Below the pieces are notes generated by a model, which was not told the origin of the DNA, ran no database searches, and saw only the letters and a list, made by a program, of their open reading frames with translations. From an alpha proteobacterium SCGC AAA028-C07 (lineage in GTDB: Bacteria; Pseudomonadota; Alphaproteobacteria; Pelagibacterales; Pelagibacteraceae), in contig ATTB01000006.1 in NCBI GenBank assembly GCA_000419465.1, positions 1-42,394 of the forward strand: a stretch of DNA of 42,394 nt, in the 5' to 3' direction. The position numbers and the translations under genes are program-made. Positions 33,395 through 42,060 of the stretch are shown here, piece after piece; position 1 is the first letter of the stretch, and every line of letters begins with the position of its first letter.

Positions 33395-34000
33395 TTAATT
33401 ATTTATACAAACTTCCCAATGTTTAGTTAAGTAAGAAAATTTTTTTACGATCTTTGCAGGGACTCCAACTGCTAGACAATTTGTTGGAAGGTCTTTAGTT
33501 ACTATAGATCCAGCCCCAACTACAACTCCATCTCCAATCGTAACTCCCGGCGTTATAAAAACTCTATCTCCAAACCAACAGTTATTTCCAATTATAATTG
33601 GCGAACTGACAAGTTCTCTCTTGACTGGAGCAATAGATGGATCGCTATGAGATTCTCCTTTATACCCTCCATGAGAATGATCCATGACTGTGCAATCACT
33701 TCCAAATAGAGTATTTGATCCAATTTTTACATATTTAGCCGCTCCAATATGAAGTCGATAATTTGCCATGACATTATCTCCTATAATTAACTGCGAATCT
33801 TTTCCAAAAACATCTAGAACTAGACCAGCATTAGCTGAAAATCCAAATCCTATACTTAATTTGCCCTCTTTTCTTATATAAAATGGATAACGAACGATAC
33901 GTGCGGTTGGGAAACAAATCTTTGATAAAATTAGAGAAAATAGAAGACGAAGACTTCCTATAACGCCAAGATTTGAAAGAGTTTTAATTATATACTTCAT
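33395..34000 (-). CDS. left-handed beta-helix O-acetyltransferase (LbH/WbbJ-like)
   Basis: A 201-residue transferase with hexapeptide repeats from about residue 70 to 180 ('IIGDNVMANYRLHIGAAKYV', 'IGDGVVVGAGSIVTKDLP') and the catalytic His region 'DHSHGG'. C-terminal 'AVGVPAKIVKKF' is common to sugar acetyltransferases. It probably acetylates a sugar or glycan intermediate. Its start overlaps the glycosyltransferase stop by 4 bp. Confidence 0.87.
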   Translation of the reverse strand: MKYIIKTLSNLGVIGSLRLLFSLILSKICFPTARIVRYPFYIRKEGKLSIGFGFSANAGLVLDVFGKDSQLIIGDNVMANYRLHIGAAKYVKIGSNTLFGSDCTVMDHSHGGYKGESHSDPSIAPVKRELVSSPIIIGNNCWFGDRVFITPGVTIGDGVVVGAGSIVTKDLPTNCLAVGVPAKIVKKFSYLTKHWEVCINN

Positions 34001-35106
34001 AAATTTCGAAATAAATTTAAATATTGCTGCCCTATCTTACTCCATTTATATTTCTGGTTAGCAATTTGCTTCATTTTAATACCAATTTTAGAAATTACAT
34101 TTTTATTAATATTTAAAATAAGTGAATTGAGTTCTTTATCATTTTTAAAATATAAACAGCTATTATCAGTTGTATATCTATTAAAATTAACATCATAAGC
34201 GAAAATTGGCAAACCAGAAGCCATAGCTTCAACCAAGGACGGATTTGTACCTCCAACACTATGACCATGAACGTAGATAAAAGCGTTACTTCTAATTTGA
34301 TTAAGAATTTTTAGATCATAAATAGCATCTAAAATTTTAATATTGGATATTTTTTTAAATTTTTCAATTAGATCTCTTCCATATTGATTCGAATTCCAAT
34401 TGCCCACTATAACAAGAGGAAAACCTGTTTTAGAAAAACAATTCAAAATCATCTCAATGTTATTTTCGGGTTCTATTCTAGCTACCTTAAATGCATAAAT
34501 ATTGGGAATATTAAAAATTTTTTTTACTTTTAAGCTTAATTTTATTTTTTTTGCATGATCTCCTCCATATGCTATTTGCACGGTCTTGCATCCGTATTTT
34601 TTTAAAATATGTTTTGAAATTCCATGATTATCCGTAACGATGCAGTCAGCAAAACTTACTGCAAATGCTTCACTCAAACGAAGAAATATCCTTGCAAAAT
34701 AACCCCATTTCAGTCGTTCACTATCTAATCCATCAGTATTTACTATAATTTTACCCTTATAAAATATTTTTATTAATGGCAAAAAAATACAACCTGACAC
34801 GCCTAATAAAAGCATCAGATTAGATTTTCTAATTGCGTAGATCATAGAAAATAAGTCATAAAAAATACTTTGAAAACCATTAGGGTATAAATTTATATAA
34901 ATAAGTTTAACATTCTTATATTTAGGAATTTTATTCTTATAAATTTTAGAGCTACAAAAAACACAAATTTCTAAATCTTTCGAAATAAAATTAATAATAT
35001 TTTCAATTAGACTCTCCCATCCCCCATAATTTGCTGGGAGACCTACGCTTCCAATAATTGATAGTTTAGTTATTTTATTTTCGTTTATATAAATACTCAT
35101 ATTCAT
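33997..35106 (-). CDS. DUF1972-type glycosyltransferase (GT4, possible rhamnosyltransferase)
   Basis: A 369-residue GT-B protein. 'SIIGSVGLPANYGGWESLIE' (16-35) is the DUF1972 N-terminal signature; 'FKVARIEPENNIEMIL' and 'SLVEAMASGLPIFAYD' are the C-terminal nucleotide-sugar motifs of GT4 enzymes. Related proteins next to rfb genes transfer rhamnose, which is the likely donor here. The called start overlaps the preceding gene by 32 bp; the true start may be M3 or a few codons on, since the conserved strand begins near residue 13. Confidence 0.85.
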   Translation of the reverse strand: MNMSIYINENKITKLSIIGSVGLPANYGGWESLIENIINFISKDLEICVFCSSKIYKNKIPKYKNVKLIYINLYPNGFQSIFYDLFSMIYAIRKSNLMLLLGVSGCIFLPLIKIFYKGKIIVNTDGLDSERLKWGYFARIFLRLSEAFAVSFADCIVTDNHGISKHILKKYGCKTVQIAYGGDHAKKIKLSLKVKKIFNIPNIYAFKVARIEPENNIEMILNCFSKTGFPLVIVGNWNSNQYGRDLIEKFKKISNIKILDAIYDLKILNQIRSNAFIYVHGHSVGGTNPSLVEAMASGLPIFAYDVNFNRYTTDNSCLYFKNDKELNSLILNINKNVISKIGIKMKQIANQKYKWSKIGQQYLNLFRNL

Positions 35107-36220
35107 CGGACAATTTATTAATATATTTATTCCAAATTGCCGCTTTTTTTTCTACAAGATAAAATTTATTTAGATCAAATTTAAAATTATCAGCAGAATT
35201 GCTAGTGTACTGATTATGATTTATATGAAAAATAAAATTTTTGGAAATTCTATTTATATGTTTTATATAATTCTCAATTGCTTCTGTGTGCATCTCAGCC
35301 AAGCTATAAGAGTTATAAGAAAAATCTATTATATTGTCAGGCAAATTCTCTATATCGTAATTAGATATTAAAATAATATCATATTTGCTAAAATCTACTT
35401 TTTGGGTATTTAAATCACTTACTAATATTATTTTTTTATTTGGCAAAAGTGATTGCAAAAAAAAAGCAGACAAACATAGATTTTCGGGCAAATCACAACC
35501 AATATAACAATAATTATTTTCCTTCATTAAAAAATATGCAAAAGCTCCGTACCCCCCCCCTAATTCAAATACATATTTTTTTTGCTCTAAATTTTGATTA
35601 AGCAGTTTTGAAACAAAATTCGCATAATAATGGTTAGAAAAATAACTTGGATTAATTTTCTCTCCATCAAATTTAAAATAATATTGATTGCCTATACTAG
35701 GCACAACTAAATCATTTAAATTACAATCAATTTCTTTTTCTCTTGTTAATTTTTTCCATACATCAAAAATATAAATACAGTGTTTTGCATATAAATTTTT
35801 ATCAATAAATGATATTTTTTCTGAAAAAAATCTTTTCTTTAATCTTTCATGCCCACTATCACCATGAAGTCCTGTTGAAAATTTCTCCCTAAAGAAATTA
35901 TTATATTTTTTTGAAAGTTCTTGTAAATTTTTCTGACTCAAAACATCTGCTATTTCACTCATATATTTGCTATATATTGGTAACCATTCATTTCCCACTT
36001 GATACTCAATATCTTTATTTTTTTGATTTTCTTTTGATTTTTTATAAAATTTACATATTTCAGTTAAAAAAAATTCATCATTAAAGTTTGATGGTGAGTG
36101 AGAAAAAAAATCTTGAAAATTTTCTAATATAAAATCGTTATGTTGACTAAATCGTCTATCAAACAACGCAACATACAAAGATGACAATCTTCTATTTATA
36201 GCATAAATATATTTATTCAT
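35075..36220 (-). CDS. putative sugar O-methyltransferase with a G9 tract at its SAM motif
   Basis: A 381-residue protein with a helical N-terminal half (about 1-180) and a methyltransferase-like domain: 'YVFELGGGYGAFAYFL' (217-232) is the SAM-binding Gly-rich loop and 'CDLPENL' the acidic second strand. This layout fits the putative sugar O-methyltransferase family found in polysaccharide clusters. Codons for G221-G223 are GGG GGG GGG (35552-35560), so one base gained or lost would truncate or alter the protein. In the present sequence it is in frame. The substrate is unknown. Confidence 0.7.
   Translation of the reverse strand: MNKYIYAINRRLSSLYVALFDRRFSQHNDFILENFQDFFSHSPSNFNDEFFLTEICKFYKKSKENQKNKDIEYQVGNEWLPIYSKYMSEIADVLSQKNLQELSKKYNNFFREKFSTGLHGDSGHERLKKRFFSEKISFIDKNLYAKHCIYIFDVWKKLTREKEIDCNLNDLVVPSIGNQYYFKFDGEKINPSYFSNHYYANFVSKLLNQNLEQKKYVFELGGGYGAFAYFLMKENNYCYIGCDLPENLCLSAFFLQSLLPNKKIILVSDLNTQKVDFSKYDIILISNYDIENLPDNIIDFSYNSYSLAEMHTEAIENYIKHINRISKNFIFHINHNQYTSNSADNFKFDLNKFYLVEKKAAIWNKYINKLSDEYEYLYKRK
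35552..35560 (-). repeat. G9 homopolymer tract inside the methyltransferase gene
   Basis: Nine consecutive G on the minus strand (C9 on the plus strand). It is the longest G/C homopolymer I see in the window; other polysaccharide genes have runs of at most about six. Its length and place within a surface-glycan gene match tracts that drive phase variation in other bacteria. Confidence 0.9.
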
Positions 36221-36221
36221 T

Positions 36222-37217
36222 TTATTTTTGAGTTTTTGATCTTAAGTTTTGAGTATCAACAGGTAAAGCTGCCAACCATATGGAAAGAGCAGTAATTATA
36301 GGCTGGCTCCACCGAAGATAACTATTGTAACCACTTGTAACTATAGCAAGACCAACTAACGAGATAATAAAAAATATAATTTTATAATTTAGGTAATTTT
36401 TATTAGCAAAAAATAAATACGTTAATGCAACTGTTTGAAATAAAAATAATAAATAAATAGGATGAAATAGCACTGCTAGACCTGTTAAACGAATAACAGG
36501 CCAAGTTAGAGAACGCATAATATCTCCAAGCGGATATCCTATTTCAACAAAGTTATATACTCTATCAAAGTCTCTAAATGCCATGTCTATTTTTTGTCCT
36601 GAAGATATTCCGCTTAAAATAACATCCCAAAAAAACCAAAATAGAACTAATATACCTAAAGTAAGAAATATAAGATTTTTTTTATTTAGGTAAATTAATA
36701 CTATTGGTAAGTAAACAAAAAAACCTAAACGCAGCATAAACCCTAAAATTAGACCAAAAGATGAAATTATTTTACTTGAAGAAAATAAAAATAAAACCAA
36801 AGAAAAAATGATTAACGTATCTTTAAGAATATGGACTGACAGATGAGCACGATAAGGATCAAAGATAATAATAAGAACTGAAATACAATATAGCCAACCC
36901 TTTTTACGGTAGATTTCTTTAATTAATGAAAACATAATTGAATTCGTAAGTGCGTATAAAAAAATATTTAAAATTATTAGAACTATTTTATTAACATTAA
37001 AGAAGAAAACCCAAATGTAATAAAAATTGCCTAAAATTTTTAGTGGATTTTTATAAATGCCTGCAATTAAATCTTCAATTGGATTATTTAAATAAGTTAG
37101 AGCATCAGGGTGGTAGTCATAATTAATATTTACTAACCGTTCTATTGATAAAACTAATAAAGAAAATAATATTGAGATTAGAAAAAAATGAGGAACTTTA
37201 ATTTTTTTTAAAATCAT
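36222..37217 (-). CDS. multi-spanning membrane protein of unknown function, possible polymerase
   Basis: A 331-residue protein with about eight to nine membrane helices. Two soluble stretches stand out: 'NYDYHPDALTYLNNP' (33-47) in the first extracytoplasmic loop and 'DPYRAHLSVHILKDTLIIF' (120-138). A His/Lys-Asp pattern like 'LKDTLIIF' occurs in EpsG/Wzy-like polysaccharide polymerases, but I cannot name a family with confidence. It overlaps the ABC gene by 4 bp upstream and lies 1 bp from the methyltransferase gene. Confidence 0.6.
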   Translation of the reverse strand: MILKKIKVPHFFLISILFSLLVLSIERLVNINYDYHPDALTYLNNPIEDLIAGIYKNPLKILGNFYYIWVFFFNVNKIVLIILNIFLYALTNSIMFSLIKEIYRKKGWLYCISVLIIIFDPYRAHLSVHILKDTLIIFSLVLFLFSSSKIISSFGLILGFMLRLGFFVYLPIVLIYLNKKNLIFLTLGILVLFWFFWDVILSGISSGQKIDMAFRDFDRVYNFVEIGYPLGDIMRSLTWPVIRLTGLAVLFHPIYLLFLFQTVALTYLFFANKNYLNYKIIFFIISLVGLAIVTSGYNSYLRWSQPIITALSIWLAALPVDTQNLRSKTQK

Positions 37218-38866
37218 TTAAAATCTATAAAATGAGTATAATTTTTTGGATCTGAGTAATAATGAGAAACATGAATAAGTATACCTTGAAAAGTTGTTAA
37301 TAATTTTTTTTCGATTAAAAAGTAGTTTTCACGATCTATTGCGGAAAGAGACTCATCTAATAATAAAAATTTAGGCTTCTGCACTAGTGCTCGAGCTAAT
37401 ATTAGTCGCTGTTTTTCTCCAGAAGAAGGTTTAAAATTATTTTCTTCAACAACTCGTTGACCTCCATCACCAAGTAAATCAAAATCTTGCAATCTACATA
37501 TATCGATAATAGATAACATATCTTCTTTTTTTACATCTTGGCCCAATAAAATATTTTCTATTAAAGTCCTTTTAAAAAGATTGGTTGAGCTTGTTAAAAA
37601 TGCAATCTTAACTGTGTTGTCTAATTCTCTATAAAATGAAACCTCCTCTAATTTTTTATCTAAACCCATCAATGACTTTAAAAGTGTTGATTTTCCACAA
37701 CCACTTGGGCCAGTTATAAGAATAGACGCATTATTTTCGATGCAAAAATCAATTTTTTGTTTTTTACCATTAAAATTTAGATAACCTTTGGCAATGTAAA
37801 GAGGACCTTTATTTCTAAAAACTGCGTATTTTTGAATAGTTGCATCATTATACTGTAATTCAGCCAAAATTGACTCGACTAAGGGTTTTGCAAAACGAAA
37901 TTCTTGAAGTGAAATCGCAATCTTATTTAACGATGGCATTGCTCGCATTCCTAAAAAAGTCATTAATGTGACCGAAGCAACAATTGTTTTATTATCTTTG
38001 CTTAAATAAAAGTATATTGAAACGAAAATAAAAATTGCAATAATTGAAAATAACTCCACGAAAACTCGCGGACTAAGAAGAAATGTTCTCTGCAAAGTCA
38101 ATAGTCTTGCGATATTTTTATTATAATTATTAAAAATTTTAACAAAATATGACTTAAGACCAAGAAGCTCGATTTGAACGCCATCATTTATCCCCCTCAT
38201 TACAAGATCGCTCCTTTCTTGTTCTTGGGATAGGTATTTTTCACCCCAAAGTTTAACTTTCCTGCGAATAAATAAATAAAATAATGCAGAAGAACTAAAA
38301 GATATAGAAAAAAAAATAATTGCCGCTACAAAATCAAATATGAGCATTACAACGAATAGTGCAAGGACAATACAAATTTCTGAAAAAATAATGCTCAAAG
38401 GCCAACTAAAACGTGTACTGAGTTGAGAGGTCTCATTAATAATTTTATGAGCTAAATTTTCTGCACTAACTTTTGCATTATCTTGTAAAGATGGAAACCC
38501 CCTCAATTCATACAATTTTTCAGCGACGTATTGTTGTATTTTATAAACATAATTAGATTGATAAAAAGAATGCAAAAGGGAGTAAATCGATTTTATAATA
38601 AATAAAATAAAAAAAATAATTATAACAATTAATATTAAATTAACATTTTCAATATTTTCTAGACTAAGATTATTTATTATTTTTGATAAAAATTTTTCTG
38701 ATTTCAAATCAAGTATAATTAAAATAATCGGAATAACCATGCTTACACTCAACATTTCTAAAAGACCAAGTAATATTGTCGATAAAACAATTATTGGGAA
38801 CTTTTTTTTTAATTGCGGGGAAAGATAATTAAAAAATTTGAAAAATACTTTTATCTCTTTAAACAT
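37214..38866 (-). CDS. ABC exporter fused permease-ATPase (PglK/MsbA-like lipid-glycan flippase)
   Basis: A 550-residue half-transporter: six membrane helices (about 20-320) then a nucleotide-binding domain. Walker A is 'GPSGCGKSTLL', Walker B 'FLLLDESLSAID', H-loop 'ILIHVSHYY'. Two parts are unusual: the signature reads 'PSSGEKQR' instead of LSGGQ-x-x-R, and the Q-loop position ('IAFLTSSTNLF') has Ser where Gln is expected. The Walker glutamate is kept. By context it may flip lipid-linked oligosaccharides. It overlaps the GT2 stop by 16 bp. Confidence 0.88.
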   Translation of the reverse strand: MFKEIKVFFKFFNYLSPQLKKKFPIIVLSTILLGLLEMLSVSMVIPIILIILDLKSEKFLSKIINNLSLENIENVNLILIVIIIFFILFIIKSIYSLLHSFYQSNYVYKIQQYVAEKLYELRGFPSLQDNAKVSAENLAHKIINETSQLSTRFSWPLSIIFSEICIVLALFVVMLIFDFVAAIIFFSISFSSSALFYLFIRRKVKLWGEKYLSQEQERSDLVMRGINDGVQIELLGLKSYFVKIFNNYNKNIARLLTLQRTFLLSPRVFVELFSIIAIFIFVSIYFYLSKDNKTIVASVTLMTFLGMRAMPSLNKIAISLQEFRFAKPLVESILAELQYNDATIQKYAVFRNKGPLYIAKGYLNFNGKKQKIDFCIENNASILITGPSGCGKSTLLKSLMGLDKKLEEVSFYRELDNTVKIAFLTSSTNLFKRTLIENILLGQDVKKEDMLSIIDICRLQDFDLLGDGGQRVVEENNFKPSSGEKQRLILARALVQKPKFLLLDESLSAIDRENYFLIEKKLLTTFQGILIHVSHYYSDPKNYTHFIDFK

Positions 38867-39798
38867 TGATCATATATTTTTTTTAAAACTTTAAGCGGAT
38901 AAATAGGCAATATAGCAATAAAATAAAGCATTAGGTACTTTTTTCCAACAGATTTATTAAGGTATATTTTATAATGTTTAATTTTATTTATTGTTAATAA
39001 ACCTTGGGCACGAAGCCATAAGCCCCCCTTCCAGTTAAAAAGATTCGTAATATCAGAAAAAAGTTTAAATGCTTTTTTTTTAGATTTATAGTTATAACCA
39101 ACTAGAGAATTGATGCTGTCTATCCAATTTTTACATCCAATTTCGAAAACTGATGAAGTGCTTGCCCAATTTAATTTTTGTTCTTTATAAGGTAAGTTAA
39201 GTTTATAAATAGACGAAGAAATCCAATAAGCCTTAGAATTATGTTTTCTTAATCGATCTAAAACGTAAATAGTATGCGGGAAGTCACTTAAAGGTTTGAA
39301 ATTAAATTTTATATTACCTAACTTAGCTTTGTTATAAATTGTACATGACAAACAACTTAAAATACCTGTGAGTTTTTCAAAAACTAACTTAGCATCCATA
39401 TATTCTTCTTTTAAATTTTTAATATGTTCTTTAAGATTAATAATAAAAAAAAGAGGTGAATAAGCCTTTATTTTAAGTAGAATTTTATTAATAAGTTGAC
39501 TACTTATAAAATAAGTATCACCTACCATCCAAACAAATTGACTGTTAACTTTATTAAGCGGTTTTTCTAAATTTTTAAGTCCAATATTTTTTTTATTAGT
39601 TTCAAAGCTTATATTGTTAAATTTTTTTTTCCATTTTTTTAGGAGAGTTTTAGTTCCGTCAGTTGAGCAATTATCTTGAATATGAATGCGAATTTTTTTT
39701 GAGAGCATTAAAGGCGCATGATGCTCAAGCCAACTTTTTAAAATTTGCTCTCTATTAAAAGTAGGAACGACAATAGTTAGGTCTTTGCTATAAATCAT
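38851..39798 (-). CDS. family 2 glycosyltransferase
   Basis: A 315-residue GT-A enzyme. 'LTIVVPTFNREQILKSWL' (7-24) is the nucleotide-binding start, 'IQDNCSTDGTKTLL' the second motif, and 'VWMVGDTYFIS' sits where the metal-binding D-x-D lies (only one Asp, V-G-D). The C-terminal part is basic and hydrophobic, suggesting peripheral membrane contact. It probably adds a sugar in repeat assembly; donor unknown. It overlaps the ABC gene by 16 bp. Confidence 0.85.
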   Translation of the reverse strand: MIYSKDLTIVVPTFNREQILKSWLEHHAPLMLSKKIRIHIQDNCSTDGTKTLLKKWKKKFNNISFETNKKNIGLKNLEKPLNKVNSQFVWMVGDTYFISSQLINKILLKIKAYSPLFFIINLKEHIKNLKEEYMDAKLVFEKLTGILSCLSCTIYNKAKLGNIKFNFKPLSDFPHTIYVLDRLRKHNSKAYWISSSIYKLNLPYKEQKLNWASTSSVFEIGCKNWIDSINSLVGYNYKSKKKAFKLFSDITNLFNWKGGLWLRAQGLLTINKIKHYKIYLNKSVGKKYLMLYFIAILPIYPLKVLKKIYDQCLKR

Positions 39799-39840
39799 TA
39801 TTAAAATAATTATTAAATTTAGGTTTGCTATATAATTTAG

Positions 39841-41100
39841 CTATACACTTTTTTTAAAAAAACCAAATTGCAAACCGTATAAAACCATTAGAGTGTTATT
39901 AAAAAAATTACCATTAGCCGATAATGGCCAAATTGTTATTAACAAACCTGCAAATAAGCATATTTGATAATTCGATAATAATTTTTTATTATAGCTTAAT
40001 CTATAAATTGTATGTTTTAAAATAATATAAGAAAAATAAATTAATAGACCAATCAAAAAAGAAAAACCCACAATACCAGTTTCGGAAAGCATCTGAATAT
40101 AAAAATTATGAGGGTGAGTTGAGCATTTTGTTTCAGGTTTTTTTAATTTCAATTCATCACATTTTATTCTAAACATTTTGGGTCCATGTCCTAAGATTGG
40201 CTTATCTGCAAACATTTTCCAACCAGTTCTAAAAAAAGATTCATGAGCATCACTAATAAAATACTTCTCTTCCGAAACATTAGAAAAACTTTTAATTAAG
40301 GATGCGGGCGTATATTGAGGTCCAAACCAACGTTGATAGACCTTATCATCTTTTAAAAATAAAATACATATAAGGACTGCCATTGTAGAGAGTACAATTT
40401 TATAAATTGTATAATTAGATACAAAAATAAATACAAAAATAATTGCTAAATTTATAAATAAAAATGAAAATCGTTCACCAGATAAAAGAATAATATTGTA
40501 TGTACCCAAAAATAAAATCAGAGAAATATATATCTCTGAAATTTTTTTATTCGGTCGTGCGATAAATAAGGCCATAAATAAAGGAAATAATCTAGAAAGG
40601 TAAGAGCCTAAAATTAATTCATCTCCAAAAAATGAAGAAACTCTAAAATTGTGACCCAAAGGTAAACCAAAAATATTAAATCCTGAAAAAAACTGAATAT
40701 ATCCGTCAATAATAAGTGCGGTAAAGGTTATTATGAAAGAATAGTAAAAATAGTCTAAGATTATTTTGTTTTGATCAATTAGATAAGCAATTAGTAAAGA
40801 AAAAATTCCAATACGGATATAAAACAAAGATGATTTTAAACTAAAATAAATATTGTCAGATAAAATAGAAGAAAAAATACACACTATGCAAAAACCAACG
40901 AAGTAATAAAAATAAATATTTTTGTAAATATAATAAATTTTATTTTTTAACGTGAAATATAAAAACCAAATAGATAAACAACTTATTAACAAGTCTGGAA
41001 GAAAAGGACCGGTTACTATTAGAGGAACAGCAAAAGCACAAAGGATGGAGATATAATTTAAAGTTTGTGGCTTAAGATTTTTTAATAACAACATTTTCAT
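39841..41100 (-). CDS. O-antigen ligase/polymerase (Wzy/WaaL family)
   Basis: A 419-residue protein with about eleven to twelve membrane helices and one large periplasmic loop near residues 260-325 with 'GWKMFADKPILGHGPKMFRI' and 'CSTHPHNFYIQMLSETGIVG'. The H-P-H-N-x-x-x-x-x-x-x-E-x-G pattern is typical of WaaL/Wzy proteins that use lipid-linked glycans. It joins or ligates repeats at the periplasmic face. Whether it is the polymerase or the ligase cannot be told from sequence. Confidence 0.9.
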   Translation of the reverse strand: MKMLLLKNLKPQTLNYISILCAFAVPLIVTGPFLPDLLISCLSIWFLYFTLKNKIYYIYKNIYFYYFVGFCIVCIFSSILSDNIYFSLKSSLFYIRIGIFSLLIAYLIDQNKIILDYFYYSFIITFTALIIDGYIQFFSGFNIFGLPLGHNFRVSSFFGDELILGSYLSRLFPLFMALFIARPNKKISEIYISLILFLGTYNIILLSGERFSFLFINLAIIFVFIFVSNYTIYKIVLSTMAVLICILFLKDDKVYQRWFGPQYTPASLIKSFSNVSEEKYFISDAHESFFRTGWKMFADKPILGHGPKMFRIKCDELKLKKPETKCSTHPHNFYIQMLSETGIVGFSFLIGLLIYFSYIILKHTIYRLSYNKKLLSNYQICLFAGLLITIWPLSANGNFFNNTLMVLYGLQFGFFKKSV

Positions 41101-41124
41101 ATAATATAAATTTAAATCTATTTA

Positions 41125-42060
41125 TTAATTTATTTTTTGAGATAGTAGGTTTATTGTTTTGAGTATAGATTCTTTGCTACTATAATTTATTTTCAAATTA
41201 AGCTCTCTTTTTGCTTTATCAGTATTAGGAATATAATTATCAATTTTTTTTGAGAATTTTTTTGAGTTTAAAATCTTTAAGCAGTATTTTTTTGATAAAA
41301 GATTAGCAATTTTATGAATTGAAATTTTATTATTAGAGCCAACATTGTAAACAGGGCATTGATTGTTAGAATTATCTAAAATTTTAAGCAACCACCTCAC
41401 TAGATCATCGCTATACATATAAGAGCGTATTATTCTATAATTTGCTTTAATATTTATATCTTTATTTCTCAAAACATTATTAATAATATTACCTATTACG
41501 TAATGCGAGTTCTGAGGAAGATATCTACCAACAAAGCTAAAGCATCTTGCTATAGAAACTTTTAATCCTTTACTACCAAGTTCTTTAAACAAATTTTCAC
41601 TTTTTAATTTAATGTCTGAATACTTTTTCTTATATCCGTTTTTAAAATTTATTTTTTTGTATTTATCTAAATAATCTTCTTTAAATTCTTTTACTTTAGA
41701 TTTTTGAATTCCATATATTGCTCCAGAACTGACAAATAATATTTTACTACTGAAGTGATATTTCAATGATAAATTTAAATAATTTTTTACAGCTTTTAAA
41801 TCTTGATCATAGTTTTTTAAAATTGCGGCATATATTACATAATCGGCGCTGGGTAGTTTTTTAATGTTAAGAATATTTCCAGATATTTTTATAATTTTAA
41901 TTTTTTTTTTTAATATTTTATTAATTTGAATATTCTGTTTTCTTCTACTGAAAATTATTATTTTTTTTATTTTTAGAGAATTATAATTTTGAAAATAATC
42001 TAATATTGATTTTCCAAAAAATCCTGTGCCTCCTATAATAAGTAAAGATTTAGATTTCAT
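41125..42060 (-). CDS. NAD-dependent epimerase/dehydratase family protein
   Basis: A 311-residue extended SDR, very lysine- and isoleucine-rich. 'LIIGGTGFFGKSILDYF' (7-23) is the coenzyme motif, 'FVSSGAIYGIQ' the catalytic Ser region, 'YSDIKLKSENL' the Tyr-Lys pair and 'YNVGSNNKISIHKIANLL' a typical C-terminal segment. Substrate unknown; it lies 24 bp upstream of the polymerase start and 31 bp after the aldolase, so it may act on that enzyme's product. Confidence 0.82.
   Translation of the reverse strand: MKSKSLLIIGGTGFFGKSILDYFQNYNSLKIKKIIIFSRRKQNIQINKILKKKIKIIKISGNILNIKKLPSADYVIYAAILKNYDQDLKAVKNYLNLSLKYHFSSKILFVSSGAIYGIQKSKVKEFKEDYLDKYKKINFKNGYKKKYSDIKLKSENLFKELGSKGLKVSIARCFSFVGRYLPQNSHYVIGNIINNVLRNKDINIKANYRIIRSYMYSDDLVRWLLKILDNSNNQCPVYNVGSNNKISIHKIANLLSKKYCLKILNSKKFSKKIDNYIPNTDKAKRELNLKINYSSKESILKTINLLSQKIN

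Follow-up and report, generated by a model that had tools for sequence, protein, structure and literature searches.

A nine-guanine tract at the SAM-binding glycines of a putative SAR11 sugar O-methyltransferase: a probable chance codon run at a candidate phase-variation site

Poly-G tracts in Campylobacter range from 7 to 13 G with a peak at 9, and several of them are located in SAM-dependent methyltransferases (PMC6321876). The genomes of C. jejuni carry 12-29 poly-G/C tracts, for which length variation has been observed (PMC8437040, PMC6321876), and cj1426, encoding a phase-variable capsule heptose O-methyltransferase, switches at about 2e-2 (PMC8437040). For SAR11, a literature search listed no paper in which a phase-variation switch is apparent from title and abstract.

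A preliminary description of a 42,394-base stretch of SAR11 DNA (hereafter the window, meaning this whole stretch) proposed that a run of nine G in a methyltransferase gene is such a switch, by analogy with Campylobacter. Poly-G tracts in Campylobacter methyltransferases are indeed a documented precedent (PMC6321876, PMC8437040). Here, we compare the tract with the composition of the window, with runs of similar length in the family and with the same motif in homologues. We conclude that the G9 is probably a chance, passively slippery codon run that is not maintained as a switch.

The tract and its gene

The tract and the genes around it are listed in Table 1. On the coding strand the sequence around the tract reads TTT GAA TTA GGG GGG GGG TAC GGA, which is translated as part of VFEL-GGG-YGAFA, and Gly221-223 are exactly the three GGG codons making up the G9. 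Elsewhere in the window (42,394 bases, 29% GC), no run of G or C exceeds 6. The number of G9/C9 runs expected per window is 0.004 for independent bases, 0.02 under a first-order Markov model and 0.03 from the tail of the run lengths (3 or more) observed in the window itself. The tract is thus real and, as had been claimed, rare for one window (0.004-0.03 expected); across the many genomes of the family, a tract of this kind is not rare. Given the protein, the chance of three consecutive GGG codons is ~6e-4 with the codon usage of the window (GGG = 65/766 Gly codons) and ~1.6e-4 with the codons that relatives use at this motif. The second homopolymer within the gene, an A9, is ordinary for AT-rich DNA, as the window has 20 A/T runs of 9 or more.

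Table 1. Positions of the tract, the methyltransferase gene and the neighbouring genes in the window.
Feature	Position	Strand	Remarks
Putative sugar O-methyltransferase, 381 aa	35075..36220	(-)	NCBIfam TIGR04371 (methyltran_NanM), profile match
G9 tract (C9 on +, G9 on -)	35552..35560	(-)	codons 221-223, GGG-GGG-GGG; SAM-binding glycine loop (motif I)
A9 on + (T9 on coding strand)	35457..35465	(-)	second homopolymer within the methyltransferase gene
Glycosyltransferase (DUF1972 + Glycos_transf_1)	33997..35106	(-)	downstream; 32 bp overlap with methyltransferase 3' end
Putative membrane protein	36222..37217	(-)	directly upstream; judged hydrophobic by eye, without a Pfam match
ABC transporter	37214..38866	(-)	ATP-binding domain matched; same run of genes
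Glycosyltransferase family 2, O-antigen ligase/polymerase (Wzy_C), NAD-dependent epimerase	38851..42060	(-)	

By score, the encoded protein belongs to TIGR04371 (95.5 bits relative to a cut-off of 44, E 3.9e-27), while the ORF has no Pfam match. It shares with this family the E-L-G-G-G-Y-G of motif I, E309-M310 and Y318, and its identity to every homologue found is ~35% or less. G221 and G225 do not vary in an alignment of 15 homologues, and E219 and G223 are nearly invariant. A sequence search for a solved structure of the protein found none. A structure model was built on a three-sequence alignment; with a mean pLDDT of 51.7 (about 60-80 in the core) it is a poor model, and it was used solely for the strand-loop-helix surrounding motif I. 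It predicts a strand at residues 215-220, a loop with the glycines and a helix at 226-234 in a class I methyltransferase-like arrangement, and the PDB structures that it matches best are class I SAM methyltransferases, at low TM-scores. Conservation and this low-confidence model together place the glycines in motif I for class I SAM binding, in the loop that follows strand 1 of a Rossmann-like fold. This is in agreement with the preliminary description, which had put the tract at SAM-binding glycines 221-223 of a surface-glycan methyltransferase. The gene product is likely a class I SAM-dependent sugar O-methyltransferase of the NanM type, putative and with a presumed substrate.

The presence of glycosyltransferases, an ABC transporter, an O-antigen ligase/polymerase and an epimerase as neighbours points to a surface-glycan operon, and from this genomic context the enzyme likely acts on a sugar of a surface glycan. 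The gene for the upstream putative membrane protein stops one base before the methyltransferase start codon. Since the downstream glycosyltransferase starts inside the methyltransferase 3' end, truncation of the methyltransferase might also lower its translation.

A one-base slip had been described as turning the enzyme off, and translation of the altered sequences bears this out: G8 gives a product of 230 aa and G10 one of 235 aa, against 381 aa at G9. Both products stop ~7-12 codons past the glycines and would lack most of the SAM-binding fold, while at G6 and G12 the frame is kept with one glycine fewer or more. The locus therefore has two properties of a contingency locus, namely an in-frame run of at least 7-8 G and the loss of the full product by a one-base slip. 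It also has a third, a permissive mutational background with weak or absent mismatch repair: neither MutS (0/41) nor MutL (0/41) scored over the cut-off in 41 Pelagibacterales genomes, in a search whose controls were positive, and mutS and mutL are reported to be missing from SAR11 single-cell genomes (PMC12374537). Because MutS and MutL are apparently absent from the lineage, the tract is probably passively slip-prone. It may slip often, as may every such run in these genomes.

Poly-G runs in the family and in homologues

Runs of this length were then counted across the family. In 297 family genomes (~1 Mb each) there are 30 distinct runs of 9 or more G/C, or ~0.1 per Mb. The tail of the run-length distribution, taken from a 187-kb sample of Pelagibacteraceae DNA, would give 0.21 per Mb; the observed rate thus shows no excess. 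Within the whole 0.85 Mb window genome, there are two G/C runs of 8 or more, the methyltransferase G9 and one other. With two tracts in 0.85 Mb and a family rate below the tail estimate, a genome-wide excess of tracts over chance was not found. The second run of the window genome is a C9 that is intergenic and directly after dxs (C5:36667-36675).

Sorted by eye, from reading frames and Pfam, 18 of the 30 family runs are coding, 11 lie in non-coding DNA or immediately 5' of a start codon, and the last is in DNA of 62% GC that is probably foreign. The frame is intact at seven coding runs, those in Ppx/GppA, SelO, TctA, GlpX, a Gfo/Idh oxidoreductase, TyrS (G11) and the window methyltransferase. 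At ~11 of the 18, a number to be read with the search threshold of 9 or more, which enriches for +1 errors of G8 runs, the assembled sequence has a broken frame or a displaced N-terminus. These include SecA (in two genomes), CarB, CoaBC, RmuC, an AMP-binding enzyme, a PLP-dependent enzyme, a decarboxylase and a GT2, as well as a permease-like and a small methyltransferase-like protein, both without a Pfam match. By this sorting, the coding runs sit mostly in housekeeping genes. Since Pelagibacteraceae assemblies often break the frame at runs of 9-10 G, even in conserved genes such as SecA and CarB, the runs would mark slippage or assembly/consensus error and not switches. Glycan-type genes account for ~4/18 coding tracts (the window gene, the GT2, the Gfo/Idh oxidoreductase and the small methyltransferase-like protein), which is somewhat more than they would be expected to occupy of a genome. 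The genus of the window genome (g1) has 6 runs of 9 G in 13 genomes, which exceeds what the family rate would give (post hoc P about 4e-4). These g1 runs occur as two each in three genomes (G000, which is the window's genome, G001 and G009), and 4/6 are non-coding or 5' of a start.

The same motif was followed through relatives of the gene. The pattern E-x-GGG-[YF]-G occurs at 38 sites in 397 family genomes, and only the window gene spells it GGG-GGG-GGG, as it alone does among the SAR11 members of TIGR04371 that were examined. All of the other 37 sites use mixed Gly codons, with GGG at 6/111 positions. Order-wide, 19 other TIGR04371 loci have a readable motif, and the longest G run in it is at most 5. 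A protein search found no homologue in the 12 other genomes of the genus, and no relatives came up when GTDB genome contigs, IMG/VR viral contigs, plasmids and phages were searched at the protein level. The glycine codon choice of relatives had been fixed in advance as a point on which the switch could fail, and with 37/37 SAR11 sites mixed the codon half of that point went against it. The broader proposal of a phase-variable switch fared no better, as the family runs are no commoner than the chance tail, lie mostly in housekeeping genes or non-coding DNA, and form no Campylobacter-like set.

The tract, found at 0/37 other family sites, is present in two homologues, L120 and L119, both of which were found via a search for the tract itself. 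In this search the exact G9 motif pattern was run against 84,980 species genomes and gave nine matches, two of them in genes of this kind; the other seven, in frames of 60 codons or fewer, were not in methyltransferase-type genes and were discarded. L120, from a Burkholderiaceae MAG (RH-23may17-1242), is the closest homologue found, with 173 bits and 35% identity over nearly the full length. It carries a G10 at the same codons (CTG GGG GGG GGG) with the frame intact. While it shares the motif with the window gene, it comes from a different bacterial class and from a locus of 42% GC. The L120 genome has ~13 runs of 8 or more G. No close relatives of L120 were found among 299 related genomes, and queries with either protein, that of the window or L120, found no other comparably close homologue in ~800 genomes. 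L119, from a Lachnospiraceae MAG, is a remoter homologue that has a G9 at the same codons, within a low-GC glycan island.

This island (L119, L166 and L167, in the MAG CAMWXB01) holds at least six G7-G9 runs, some of them at frame breaks, and two of its runs are followed by similar C-terminal segments (RGGVKSxxYILxPP...). It thereby resembles a set of poly-G contingency loci of the Campylobacter kind, here in a Lachnospiraceae.

Explanations of the tract

The reading that we consider probable is that the G9 arose by chance and is passively slippery, without being maintained as a switch. In this case, the E-L-G-G-G-Y-G of motif I would happen to be spelled with three GGG codons, giving the G9, and the run would most likely be a product of synonymous drift, in a glycan gene that is seldom shared. 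Slips by +1 or -1 would then yield truncated, inactive products, mostly in deleterious or neutral mutants. We infer here both the absence of selection for the tract and its slippage rate. A selected switch was considered as the best explanation and set aside because the family background explains runs of such length. What counts against a chance run is above all that L120, the closest homologue found, has a G10 at the same codons, because genes as diverged as it and the window gene would not be expected to have inherited the same synonymous choices. The G9 of L119 in its tract-rich island, the ~4/18 glycan-type genes and the raised number of runs in the genus also count against it. If the run is a chance one, it shows that chance produces G9 runs in these genomes, which lack mismatch repair, and that finding one in a single assembly does not amount to evidence of phase variation.

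It is unlikely, though possible, that the locus is a true contingency locus, in which the G9 is kept as a hypermutable on/off switch of surface-glycan methylation that possibly alters phage adsorption. The length and position of the tract match the Campylobacter type (PMC6321876; cj1426, PMC8437040), MutS and MutL were not found in the 41 Pelagibacterales genomes, and the setting is a glycan operon. The tracts of L120 and L119, the latter within a glycan island rich in tracts, are also in its favour, but as examples retrieved via the tract they are biased. Against it, none of the 37 other SAR11 motif sites keeps the run, there is no genome-wide set of tracts, and the family background is equal to or below the chance tail. 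Should the run vary in length, SAR11, one of the most abundant groups of marine bacteria, would have a reversible surface-sugar switch that bears on phage escape, in genomes regarded as streamlined.

A narrower proposal, which we hold to be somewhat less likely still, is that a small methyltransferase subfamily spanning SAR11, Burkholderiaceae and the Lachnospiraceae island keeps G9-G10 as a phase-variation site, which would make this the first SAR11 contingency locus. Such a site would allow phage-facing glycans to be changed rapidly and reversibly.

That the length of 9 is partly an assembly or sequencing error, with a true run of another length or an interrupted one, appears improbable. Homopolymers readily give rise to artefacts in both sequencing and bioinformatic analysis (PMC8808543), and ~11/18 family coding runs of 9 or more break the frames of conserved genes, two of them in SecA. 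However, a single-base error would break the frame, so the intact 381 codons at length 9, together with the exact conserved motif ELGGGYG, argue against a miscount. Another role in DNA or RNA, for example as a programmed frameshift site that yields a short second product, is very improbable: the run is G-rich, slippery and coding, and a product of 230 or 235 aa would retain the N-terminal part, but the out-of-frame products end so soon after the glycines (~7-12 codons), before most of the SAM-binding fold, and no SAR11 relative has such a run at any of the 37 motif sites.

Comparison with Campylobacter contingency loci

The window gene differs from the Campylobacter loci cj1426, Cj0170 and UbiE_3 in its genomic surroundings, as its genome has two tracts in 0.85 Mb relative to 12-29, and its SAR11 relatives have no tract. 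It is like them in having an in-frame tract of the G8-G11 class in a surface-glycan or SAM-dependent methyltransferase gene, in that a one-base slip would switch it off, and in belonging to an AT-rich genome.
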